Of a DNA stretch of 43,663 nucleotides, positions 19,243 through 24,561 are shown piece by piece. The position numbers and the translations under genes were made by a program. The notes under the pieces were generated by a model. That model was given only the letters and a program-made list of their open reading frames with translations, did not search any database and was not told the origin of the DNA. The stretch covers positions 1 through 43,663 of the forward strand of contig JASHSK010000003.1 in the NCBI GenBank assembly GCA_030038755.1. Direction: 5' to 3'. Numbering within the stretch: the stretch's first letter is position 1; each line of letters opens with the position of its first letter. This DNA is from Gammaproteobacteria bacterium. Lineage in GTDB: Bacteria; Pseudomonadota; Gammaproteobacteria; Steroidobacterales; Steroidobacteraceae.

Positions 19243-20196
19243 TCAGCCACCCGCCACCGGCGGCAGGAAGGCCACGGTGTCGCCCTCGGCAAGACTCGTG
19301 CGCCAGTCGCCGAACTCGTCGTTGATGGCCACACGCAGGAATTCCGGGGCCAGGGCCAGGCCGCGCCGCTGCTGCAGCTCGCGGTACAGCTCGAGGGCGG
19401 TGCGCGCGCGCGTCTGCAGCTGCTCGTCGCCTCGCCCGGCCTGCTCGCGCAGCAGCGCGAAGTAGCGTACCCGCAGCCGCAGGGGCGGCGCCTCGAGGTG
19501 CGGCCCAGGCGCGCTCGCCGCGGCAGGGGCCGCGCTCGCGGCTCCTTCGAGCTGCGCCGTCGCCGCGGCGTACTGCTCGGGGGTGTTGACGTTGTCGAGC
19601 GCGCGCGGCTCGAATGGCTCGAGCAGCCGTGCCCGGGTCGCGGCGCTCTGCAGCAGCGCGCGCGGGCACCGCTGCCCCTGTGCGATCCAATCATCCACCG
19701 CCGCGCGGCTGGCCGGCTCGAAGATCGCGCACAACGGTTCCGGCAGGCCATCGAAGCTGCTGCGGTACGCCGTCGCAATCCGATCGGCGGCGCGGCTGGC
19801 GATCAGGTGATCGAGCGTCGTCGCCGTCAGGAAGGGCAGGTCGCAGGCGAGCACCAGCCAGGCGTGATCCGGGTGGGTGTGCAGTGCCGCGTGGATGCCG
19901 CCGATGGGACCGAGGTCCGGTTGCAGATCGGCGATGCAGGAATAGGCCGTACGCGCCGGATCGCTGCGTTGCTCGGTTCGGATCGACACGAAGGCACGCT
20001 GCACGCGGGGTGACAGCAGCTCCATCGCGCGCTGCAGCTGCGACCGGCCCACATAGGGGAGCGAGGCCTTGTCGCGCTGCATGCGACGGCTGTGGCCCCC
20101 GGCAAGCACCAGCCCGTACAGGGGCGCCGTCGAGGTTGCGGCCGAGGCGGCCGACGTGCCCGGGGGCAGGGCGCGTGACGGGGGCGCGGCGCTCAT
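19243..20196 (-). CDS. MobA-MoaD fusion (Moco guanylyltransferase + sulfur carrier)
   Basis: A 317-residue two-domain protein. Residues about 26-225 are MobA-like: [25 protein letters not shown] (nucleotide binding), [34 protein letters not shown] and DNVNTPEQY. MobA joins GMP to molybdopterin to give the bis-MGD precursor. Residues about 237-317 are MoaD-like: [45 protein letters not shown], with the exposed C-terminal Gly-Gly that is adenylated and thiocarboxylated. A Pro/Ala linker ([16 protein letters not shown]) joins them. There is no frameshift or internal stop. The ATG overlaps the moaC stop as ATGA. No separate moaD is seen in the operon. Confidence 0.9.
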
Positions 20197-20861
20197 GCGC
20201 GCGCCTCGCGCGCGCTAGCCGAGCGCGACGCTGCGGCACCCACCCGGCGGCGCCCACCGCTTTTCGACAGCAACCGCACCGCCTCGATGCGAATGTCGTG
20301 GGAGAGCGCCTTGCACATGTCGTAAATCGTCAGGGCCGCCAATGTGGCCCCGGTCAGCGCCTCCATCTCGACGCCGGTCTTGTGGTGGACCTCGACGCGA
20401 CAGCGCACGCGAATGAGCGCCGCACGGGGAGCTGCCTTGCCTGCCTTGCGGTCGTGTGCGCGCGCGCTGCCGGACGGACCAGGCTCGAAGTCGATGCTCA
20501 CCTGGCAGTGCTCGAGCGCGAGCGGATGGCAGAAGGGGATGAGCTCCGCCGTGCGCTTGGCGGCCATCACTCCCGCCAGGATCGCGGTATCGAATACCGG
20601 ACCCTTGCGCGTGCGATGGCCGCTGCTGCGCAGGGCGTCGGCCACGGCCGCCGGCAGCCGAACGCGTGCCTCGGCCTCGGCAATGCGGTGGGTGACGGCC
20701 TTGGCGCCGACGTCGACCATGGTGGGGCGGTTGCTGGCATCCAGATGTGAGAGGCCGGGTGCACCGCCGTCGTCGGGCGCGCCACCGTTGCCGGGTGCAC
20801 GACCGCTGCCGCGTGCGCCACCGTCGCCGCTCGCGTGACCGTTGTGCCGCCGGGCCATCAT
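20193..20861 (-). CDS. moaC: Cyclic pyranopterin monophosphate synthase MoaC
   Basis: With MoaA it converts GTP to cyclic pyranopterin monophosphate, the first Moco intermediate. The MoaC core is clear: [58 protein letters not shown], and [35 protein letters not shown]. The track ORF starts 60 codons early inside moaA; ATG 20861 overlaps the moaA stop as ATGA and is preferred, giving 222 residues. This leaves about 45 extra Gly/Asp/Ala-rich N-terminal residues made of 18-bp repeats and about 20 extra C-terminal residues, so the core is normal but both ends are extended. Confidence 0.93.
20755..20845. repeat. Degenerate 18-bp tandem repeat in the moaC 5' end
   Basis: Imperfect copies of gcgccaccgttgccgggt (for example gcgccaccgtcgccgctc) encode the [25 protein letters not shown] extension of MoaC. 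The unit is in frame. Confidence 0.75.
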
Positions 20862-21943
20862 CCACCCAGATAGTTCATTTCGACGTGCTGTACGCCGCGC
20901 GCCCGCAGCTCGTCGCGCAGCTCGCTGTAGCGATCCATGCGCCGCTCCCAGACGGCGCGGATCAGCGCACTGAGCTCCGCGTCGCTGGCACCCGCGCGCA
21001 GCGGGCCGCGCAGATCCACGCCCGTGGCGGCGAACAAACACGTGTGCAGCTTGCCGTCCGAGCTCAGGCGCGCGCGCGAGCAGTCTCCACAGAACGGCTG
21101 CGTGACCGAGGAGATGAAGCCCACCTCTCCGGCGCCGTCCTGGAAGGCGTAACGGCGTGCAACCTCGCCGCGGTAGGCCGGCTCCAGCGGCGTGAGCGGC
21201 CAGCGTGCGTGCACGCGCTCGTACAGCTCGTGCGAGGGCACGACGCGCTCGCGGTTCCAGTCGTTGCGGTTGCCCACGTCCATGTATTCGATGAAGCGCA
21301 CGATCGCGCCGCTGCCGCGAAAGTGCTCGAGCAGATCCAGGGCGCTGTGATCGTTCAGGCCGCGCTGCACGACCGCATTGATCTTGATCGGGGAGAGCCC
21401 CGCGTGGCGCGCGGCCTCGATTCCGGCGAGCACCTCGTCGAGCTGTGCGAAGCCGCCGGCCATGACGGCGAACACCTCCGGGTCCAGGCTGTCGAGGCTC
21501 ACCGTGACGCGCTTGAGGCCCGCGGCGCGCAGCGCGGCGGCGTGCTGGGCGAGCAGCACGCCGTTGGTCGTCAGGGCGATGTCTTCGATGCCTGGAAGGC
21601 CGCTGAGGTCGCCGATCAGGTCGGGCAGCCCGGCGCGCACCAGCGGCTCTCCCCCGGTGATGCGCAGCTTGACCACGCCCAGCGGTACGAACGCGCGCGT
21701 CAGGCGCACCAGCTCCTCGAAGCTCAGGCGTTCGCCCGAGCGCAGGAAGCGATACTGCTCGTGGTAGCGCTCGCGCGGCATGCAGTATGGGCAGCGGAAG
21801 TTGCAGCGGTCCGTGACGGACAGGCGCAGATCGCGCAGCGGCCGATTCAGCCGATCCGTCGGTGGGCGCGGGCGCGGCGGCAGCGGATGCACCCGTGCGC
21901 CGCCGCCCTTGGCTCCCATACCGGTCTGACCCTTCTGATCCAT
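20858..21943 (-). CDS. moaA: GTP 3',8-cyclase MoaA (radical SAM)
   Basis: A radical-SAM enzyme that rearranges GTP in the first step of Moco synthesis. The N-terminal cluster motif is [12 protein letters not shown] (C47, C51, C54), followed by [11 protein letters not shown] and LTTNGVLL. The C-terminal cluster segment is [21 protein letters not shown], and the protein ends in the family-typical Gly-Gly (NYLGG). The length of 361 residues includes about 25 extra at the N-terminus. It starts 25 bases after the moeA stop, and its own stop overlaps moaC. Confidence 0.97.
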
Positions 21944-21968
21944 GTCGTAAGGCTACCAGCGCCGGGCG

Positions 21969-23770: not shown

Positions 23771-24228
23771 CGCGTATCCGTCATCAATGCCGCGACGACT
23801 TTCTGATCGAAGATGGCCTGCTGCGGCGGCGTCAGCACGGCGCGTAAACTGAGCACGTATAGCACAGTCTGTCTCTGCAGCTCCCCCACCTGCGACTCCA
23901 GATCGTCGATGGATTTTTCGACGGCCGGACCGAAGCCCATCTCCTCGGCGAGGGCGTTGCTCAGCTCGACATTGGCTTCCGCGATGTGCGCGCGCAGCAC
24001 CGTGCGCGTATGCGCGTAGCGCTGATCGATGGCGTTGATCTGCTGCTTCTGCTGAGCACTGAGGCCCGTCAGACCACGGCGTGACAGCTCATCGACCGCG
24101 GCTCGCAGCGGCTGCGCCGGAGGGTAGAGACTGGCATCCAGGCGGTTGACGCCGACCCACACTCCCACAAAGCCCGCAACACCCGCCAACAGAATCGTCA
24201 GGATGAGCTGGCGTTGAAAGACCGTCAC
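23767..24228 (-). CDS. Membrane-anchored periplasmic metal sensor, CnrX-like
   Basis: A 153-residue protein with one N-terminal membrane anchor (residues 7-28, LILTILLAGVAGFVGVWVGVNR) and a periplasmic helical-hairpin domain. Features are LSAQQKQQINAIDQRYAHTRTVLRAHIAEANVELSNALAEE (57-96, with H73 and H81) and LRAVLTPPQQAIFDQKVVAALM (129-149) with an LTxxQ-type box. CnrX-type sensors bind metal in this domain and release the sigma factor through the small anti-sigma protein. The metal cannot be predicted here: the His spacing differs from my recollection of the CnrX nickel/cobalt site. The GTG start overlaps the upstream gene as GTGA. Confidence 0.8.
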   Translation of the reverse strand: MTVFQRQLILTILLAGVAGFVGVWVGVNRLDASLYPPAQPLRAAVDELSRRGLTGLSAQQKQQINAIDQRYAHTRTVLRAHIAEANVELSNALAEEMGFGPAVEKSIDDLESQVGELQRQTVLYVLSLRAVLTPPQQAIFDQKVVAALMTDTR

Positions 24229-24476
24229 GGACCGCTCGCGAGCAGGCTCGAGGGCGCCAGCAGCGCATCGTCGCCCAGCACGACGGCTTCGCTCGCCCCA
24301 AGATTTTCGCGGTGCTGAGCGCTGGCGACGCCGACGCCGAGGCCGACGATCAGAGCGCAGGCGGTGACCACGGCCCCCACCGGCAACGCACTGCGACTAT
24401 TCGCGCGCTGCCGATGAGCCCGGATCCGCCCCAGCACATCCTGCTCGAGTCTCTCCAGTGAAGCTTGGCTGGACAT
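24225..24476 (-). CDS. Small single-span membrane protein, probable anti-sigma factor (CnrY-like)
   Basis: An 83-residue protein: a basic cytoplasmic part (1-30, LERLEQDVLGRIRAHRQRANSR), one membrane segment (31-53, LPVGAVVTACALIVGLGVGVAS) and a short periplasmic tail. Size, topology and position ahead of a CnrX-like sensor and an ECF sigma factor match CnrY, a membrane-bound anti-sigma factor; sequence similarity alone would not show this. The start MSSQASLERL at 24476 is chosen over the track start (GTG 24509) because it follows GGAGG and lies about 50 bases after a good promoter. Confidence 0.65.
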   Translation of the reverse strand: MSSQASLERLEQDVLGRIRAHRQRANSRSALPVGAVVTACALIVGLGVGVASAQHRENLGASEAVVLGDDALLAPSSLLASGP

Positions 24477-24532
24477 TTGCCGATGATGCCTCCGCTCCGC
24501 CGGCACCACGGCCGGTGTACGGCGGCTGCAAA

Positions 24533-24561
24533 ATCATAGAAACGGGCCGGGATGCGATCAA
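24533..24561 (-). promoter_or_regulatory. Promoter of the sigma-factor/Moco block
   Basis: On the minus strand TTGATC and TATGAT are separated by exactly 17 bases, a good sigma-70-type match. The -10 element ends about 56 bases before the ATG of the anti-sigma gene. The sigma factor's own target sequence is not evident. Confidence 0.6.

Follow-up and report, generated by a model that had tools for sequence, protein, structure and literature searches.

The CnrYXH-like triad and its neighbours

A stretch of 43,663 nucleotides from a member of the Steroidobacteraceae (contig JASHSK010000003.1 of assembly GCA_030038755.1; hereafter the window, meaning the whole of this stretch) carries, directly ahead of an operon for the biosynthesis of the molybdenum cofactor (Moco), three genes for a small membrane protein, a periplasmic sensor and an extracytoplasmic function (ECF) sigma factor. 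The arrangement recalls CnrYXH, the textbook periplasmic metal sensor for efflux, and a preliminary description of the window had taken the triad for a metal-sensing device that controls Moco synthesis. The present analysis points instead to a CnrYXH-type switch that has probably been turned from metal efflux to the import of nickel and cobalt, with the Moco operon receiving at most read-through. The genes concerned are as follows.

24225..24476, minus strand: cnrY-like gene for a single-span anti-sigma factor, 83 amino acids from an internal ATG; the version from an upstream GTG is a 94-residue open reading frame (an extension)
23767..24228, minus strand: CnrX-like periplasmic sensor (Metal_resist/LTXXQ), GTG start, GTGA overlap with the cnrY-like gene
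23195..23770, minus strand: CnrH-like ECF sigma factor, TTG start, TTGA overlap with the sensor gene
21969..23168, minus strand: moeA (Pfam MoeA), first gene of the Moco operon, ATG at 23168
20858..21943, minus strand: moaA (Pfam MoaA)
20193..20861, minus strand: moaC (Pfam MoaC)
19243..20196, minus strand: mobA-moaD fusion (Pfam NTP_transf_3 and ThiS)
18658..19218, minus strand: moaE with a His-rich C-terminal tail (Pfam MoaE), just beyond the span 19243-24561
24847..24923, plus strand: tRNA-Arg(TCG), a conserved neighbour and the upstream edge of the insertion discussed below

The gene layout given earlier, i.e. the Y-X-H order, the GTGA and TTGA overlaps, moeA 26 bp past the sigma-factor stop and the succession moaA, moaC, mobA-moaD, moaE, was recovered in every detail. 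The sensor matches Pfam Metal_resist (E=5e-10) and the sigma factor Sigma70_r2 and Sigma70_r4_2, and NCBIfam agrees with the names of the triad and Moco genes. The surroundings of the triad consist of Moco genes, proBA, tRNA-Arg and regulators; annotation of the neighbouring genes revealed neither an efflux operon of the resistance-nodulation-division (RND) type beside the triad nor an RND pump elsewhere in the window.

Searches against the Protein Data Bank (PDB) found significant relatives of the sensor among CnrX and NccX only (4e-10), and CnrH as the top relative of the sigma factor (1.8e-31; runner-up 8.5e-19). A structure model of the sensor, of moderate confidence (pLDDT 69), has the CnrX fold, and its top 15 Foldseek matches are all CnrX or NccX. 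The cnrY-like protein combines a LERLE helix, one transmembrane segment and a PS-LLA tail, a layout as in the small proteins of RND-linked triads, and is 88% identical to its counterpart in the sister genome G143 (locus L033) and 46% to that in genome G166 (locus L118). The sigma factors of the window, G143 and G166 cluster together in a tree (95/97), separate from the RND-linked set, whose fork is weakly supported. On sequence grounds the three genes form a true homologue of CnrYXH, and the identity first proposed for them holds as homology.

The likeness does not extend to the metal site. Five CnrX ligand positions were mapped through PDB alignments, with CnrX numbering anchored on the E63Q mutant chain, and within the limits of these five positions none is conserved: H42 is replaced by D46, H46 by R50, E63 by D68, H119 by Y124 and M123 by L128. 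The term metal-sensing, in the sense that applies to CnrX, is therefore not borne out. CnrX signalling depends on M123 (PMC7689651), and the sensors of RND-pump-linked relatives retain H46, H119 and M123. The same ligand losses recur in L118 and in L034 and L036 (genomes G004 and G022), likewise without adjoining RND pumps. The signal of the sensor is probably not nickel or cobalt bound at the CnrX site.

Insertion beside tRNA-Arg and the promoters at the junctions

In the genus members L102, L103, L106, L107, L109 and L117, tRNA-Arg(TCG) is followed after ~75-120 bp by moeA-moaA-moaC-mobAD(-moaE) with no triad in between, and L116 contributes a triad-free tRNA-moeA junction, this junction only; in the window and in L033, the tRNA gene adjoins the triad instead. 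A close sensor ortholog is present in 2 of the 15 genomes of the genus, those of the window and of G143, and some twenty relatives conserve the Moco operon but have no triad. The search of related genomes for the triad next to moeA, which the preliminary description had proposed as a check, thus shows that the association is not general. Among 369 genomes of the class no other close sensor ortholog was found, only weak, sigma-free matches resembling Spy or Metal_resist proteins, and a scan of contigs with the sensor returned the contig of the sister metagenome-assembled genome as the sole match.

In G143 the triad likewise follows tRNA-Arg (identity to the window triad 88/93/83%). Its contig runs on for only 46 bp past the sigma gene; these 46 bp differ from the window sequence and contain no moeA start; another G143 contig opens inside moaA and continues with moaC and mobAD, and moeA of G143 probably lies in the assembly gap after the triad. 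Because relatives within the genus have the operon beside the same tRNA-Arg without the triad, gene-order comparison identifies the Moco operon as the older element and the triad as a newcomer, recently inserted. As a caution, genes that lie so close together (26 bp, same strand) may owe this to recent insertion and not to regulation. Short GC-rich direct repeats (GACATCGGGGCC, GGGCGACCCGGGGCC) occur at the insertion edge, between tRNA-Arg and the triad promoters (window 24690-24790).

The promoters predicted at the two junctions are given below.

24655..24679, minus strand: ECF-type promoter GAGGG-N15-GCGTA ahead of the cnrY-like gene, with a conserved counterpart in L033 (2887-2911, plus strand)
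24533..24561, minus strand: sigma-70-type promoter of the triad, TTGATC-17-TATGAT, also conserved in L033
23177..23204, minus strand: sigma-70-type promoter GCGACA-16-TAGAAT before moeA, its -10 element ending 8 bp ahead of the moeA ATG

The whole block had been credited with one good promoter, TTGATC-17-TATGAT; this element is indeed present at 24561-24533, as one of two predicted sigma-70-type promoters that are accompanied by a predicted ECF promoter. In the region 18500-25200, two sigma-70-type sites were found vs 0.3 expected, and the moeA site is as good as that of the triad. A separate start at moeA, which if independent of the sigma factor was named at the outset as an observation that would refute the proposed control, is thus predicted from the sequence, and the single-promoter model fails at this level. 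Triad-free relatives have TAnnAT at the matching position or ~36 bp upstream, and a start-proximal -10 element occurs in 6 of 20 moeA upstream regions, window included (shuffled sequences: mean 0.3, maximum 3). Since relatives keep such an element there, the older moeA promoter appears to have been retained at the junction. The interval from the sigma gene to moeA yielded no terminator.

As regards the Moco operon itself, its moaC is the only one found in the window genome, which is estimated to be 86% complete. A second moeA (G000:C297:64705-65889; L066), with 53% identity, has an fdhD-like gene next to it, and paralogs similar to this copy are present in several relatives; a duplicated Moco pathway was considered and rejected in view of the single moaC. 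The MoaE tail (window 18658-18800) has 14 His among its final 66 residues. His-containing MoaE tails are common across the family, and L113 and L114 have a MoaE with a MoeB/rhodanese-like part fused to it; the tail as a nickel/cobalt link to the triad was rejected, being widespread in triad-free relatives. MoaC (20193-20861) carries a Gly/Ala-rich N-terminal extension of ~35 residues ahead of its conserved domain. A scan of the window with Rfam for a Moco riboswitch or other element returned tRNAs only.

The ECF motif and its genomic sites

The motif GAGGG-N15-GCGTA was read from intergenic regions of RND-linked triads, where it stands before both triad and pump, and was afterwards sought in the window and L033. 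The 43.7-kb window holds one exact match, at 24679-24655 ahead of the cnrY-like gene, and near moeA there is no match within one mismatch. Genome-wide, exact sites number 6 in the window genome and 10 in G143, and 9 of these 16 are promoter-positioned vs 1 of 20 reversed-pattern control sites (Fisher p=0.0017). Of the 6 sites in the window genome, 5 are promoter-positioned: they stand before the triad, before cbtB-cbtA, before a DUF7676 gene with a TonB receptor and ABC importer beside it, and before two TonB receptor genes, one of which has a PepSY gene after it. Those of G143 stand before the triad, before cbtB-cbtA and before a TonB receptor gene that is succeeded by genes for PepSY and a NicO nickel/cobalt permease; one more promoter-positioned site of that genome (C201) shares its contig with a second CnrH-like sigma factor. 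PepSY_TM is among the families of the target-cluster proteins. No second close CnrH-like sigma factor was found in the window genome, so that the motif sites there would most simply belong to the triad sigma. With nickel and cobalt acquisition genes as its predicted targets, the purpose of the switch is likely supply rather than detoxification. An Rfam search of these clusters found no riboswitch, cobalamin or other.

In G166, G004 and G022, searches with a loosened pattern gave sites at background level. L034 and L036, from two genomes, carry a related triad in Y-H-X order with a ligand-less sensor, and there the same ECF motif also stands ahead of TonB-receptor and DUF6152 genes.

CbtA occurs in 5 of 200 genomes of the family; all 5 cbtB promoters have GAGGG-N15-[GA]CGTA, and all 5 genomes have a CnrH-like sigma factor. 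In genus g2, the CnrH-like sigma factor (L062-L064) lies within a cluster that encodes HupE/UreJ_2, DUF7676, DUF6925, a TonB receptor and an ABC importer. Genes for DUF6925 and DUF7676 recur beside CnrH-like motif sites and nickel/cobalt import genes in two genera (L063 4263-5282, L143 1269-2261); their products may be unrecognised metal-uptake components. Open-licence papers yielded nothing relevant on a link of ECF or CnrH-type factors to Moco or to nickel/cobalt import, which is not proof of absence.

Interpretation and comparison with known systems

According to the reading considered probable here, the triad entered the gap between tRNA-Arg and a pre-existing moeA operon in a lineage that comprises the window species and a close relative. 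By analogy to CnrYXH, the anti-sigma/sensor pair would keep the sigma factor at the membrane in the resting state, and an envelope signal independent of the CnrX nickel/cobalt site would free it. The freed sigma factor would transcribe its own operon via the autoregulatory GAGGG-N15-GCGTA promoter and, in trans, cbtBA, TonB-dependent receptors with PepSY reductase-like proteins, and the DUF7676 gene beside the TonB/ABC importer, with the NicO permease as an additional target in the sister genome. moeA would stay on its own promoter, with the Moco operon at most a read-through passenger, and its adjacency to the triad is most likely a coincidence or of secondary importance. Everything said here about the regulation of the triad, its targets and moeA is prediction.

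Several points weigh against this reading. The number of motif sites is not enriched, the reversed pattern giving 10 sites in the window genome and 10 in G143, and gene starts in the relatives come from a crude gene caller. The NicO permease is found only in the cluster of the sister genome; substrate and transport direction of CbtA and NicO are predicted by family alone. As G026, G043 and G059 form one clade, the co-occurrence of CbtA with CnrH-like sigma factors amounts to about two independent events. The reading also does not explain why a CnrX-fold sensor that lacks the CnrX metal site should run an import regulon. Finally, with no terminator found and a gap of 26 bp, read-through from the triad promoters into moeA is possible.

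This last point leads to the alternatives. The triad might sense a periplasmic metal (molybdate, copper or another) and control the Moco operon in cis, both being transcribed as a single unit, as first proposed; the short same-strand gap, the missing terminator and the gene order agree with this, as does the sister genome, which probably has the same arrangement. Such cis-control is nevertheless quite unlikely: the operon is conserved without the triad, moeA has its own predicted promoter and no ECF motif, the CnrX ligand positions are lost, trans sites lie at nickel/cobalt genes, and the sister lacks the tight junction, different sequence following its sigma gene. The earlier claim of control over Moco synthesis consequently finds no backing. 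A dual role, in which the sigma factor drives nickel/cobalt import in trans and raises Moco synthesis by read-through from its autoregulated promoter, so coupling two cofactor supplies while the sensor reads another envelope signal such as receptor state or metal shortage, draws on the same evidence as the favoured import switch, plus the terminator-less spacing. It is held to be possible but rather improbable, in that the arrangement is young and confined to two genomes, moeA has a predicted promoter of its own, and the second moeA adjoins the fdhD-like gene.

On the other hand, an efflux-type CnrYXH might have landed here by chance and lost its pump, leaving motif sites that are relics or chance matches, in line with the motif shared by RND-linked relatives and the absence of an RND pump from the window. 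This appears very doubtful, as both genomes have kept sites at the triad, cbtB and a TonB receptor, a cbtB site is also conserved in three genomes from another genus, the triad proteins are conserved at 83-93%, and the window sigma falls outside the RND-linked sigma factors in the tree, although that fork is weakly supported. If the import switch is correct, it would show that sensors built like CnrX can take on a new signal and a new purpose alike, the triad sharing its motif with pump-linked relatives. The promoter motif and the regulon are testable.

Regulation of nickel/cobalt transporters has been tied to B12 riboswitches or NikR (PMC2667541), whereas the CbtAB, NicO and HupE/UreJ uptake families appear here as predicted trans targets or neighbours of CnrH-like sigma factors, with predicted ECF sites. 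The g2 sigma factor resembles that of the window in having motif sites at cbtB and ahead of a TonB receptor, with HupE/UreJ_2, DUF7676 and an ABC importer nearby, but is only 42-46% identical, has no close sensor relative found beside it and is not near Moco genes. The RND-linked CnrH-like systems of the same family (CzcCBA/CnrCBA-like; L037-L051, L055, L058) have the same ECF motif and sigma factors roughly 43-58% identical to that of the window; their sensors, in contrast, retain H46, H119 and M123, and their motif sites precede pump operons. With CnrYXH and NccYXH of Cupriavidus metallidurans the triad shares the Y-X-H order, the single-span anti-sigma factor, the CnrX-fold sensor and the CnrH-like sigma factor. 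The reported cnrYp has a sigma-70 promoter and an ECF promoter before the Y gene (PMC9045368), a pair that is predicted here as well. Unlike CnrYXH, the triad of the window has neither the CnrX ligand positions nor an adjoining RND efflux operon; it has predicted import-gene targets and precedes a Moco operon.

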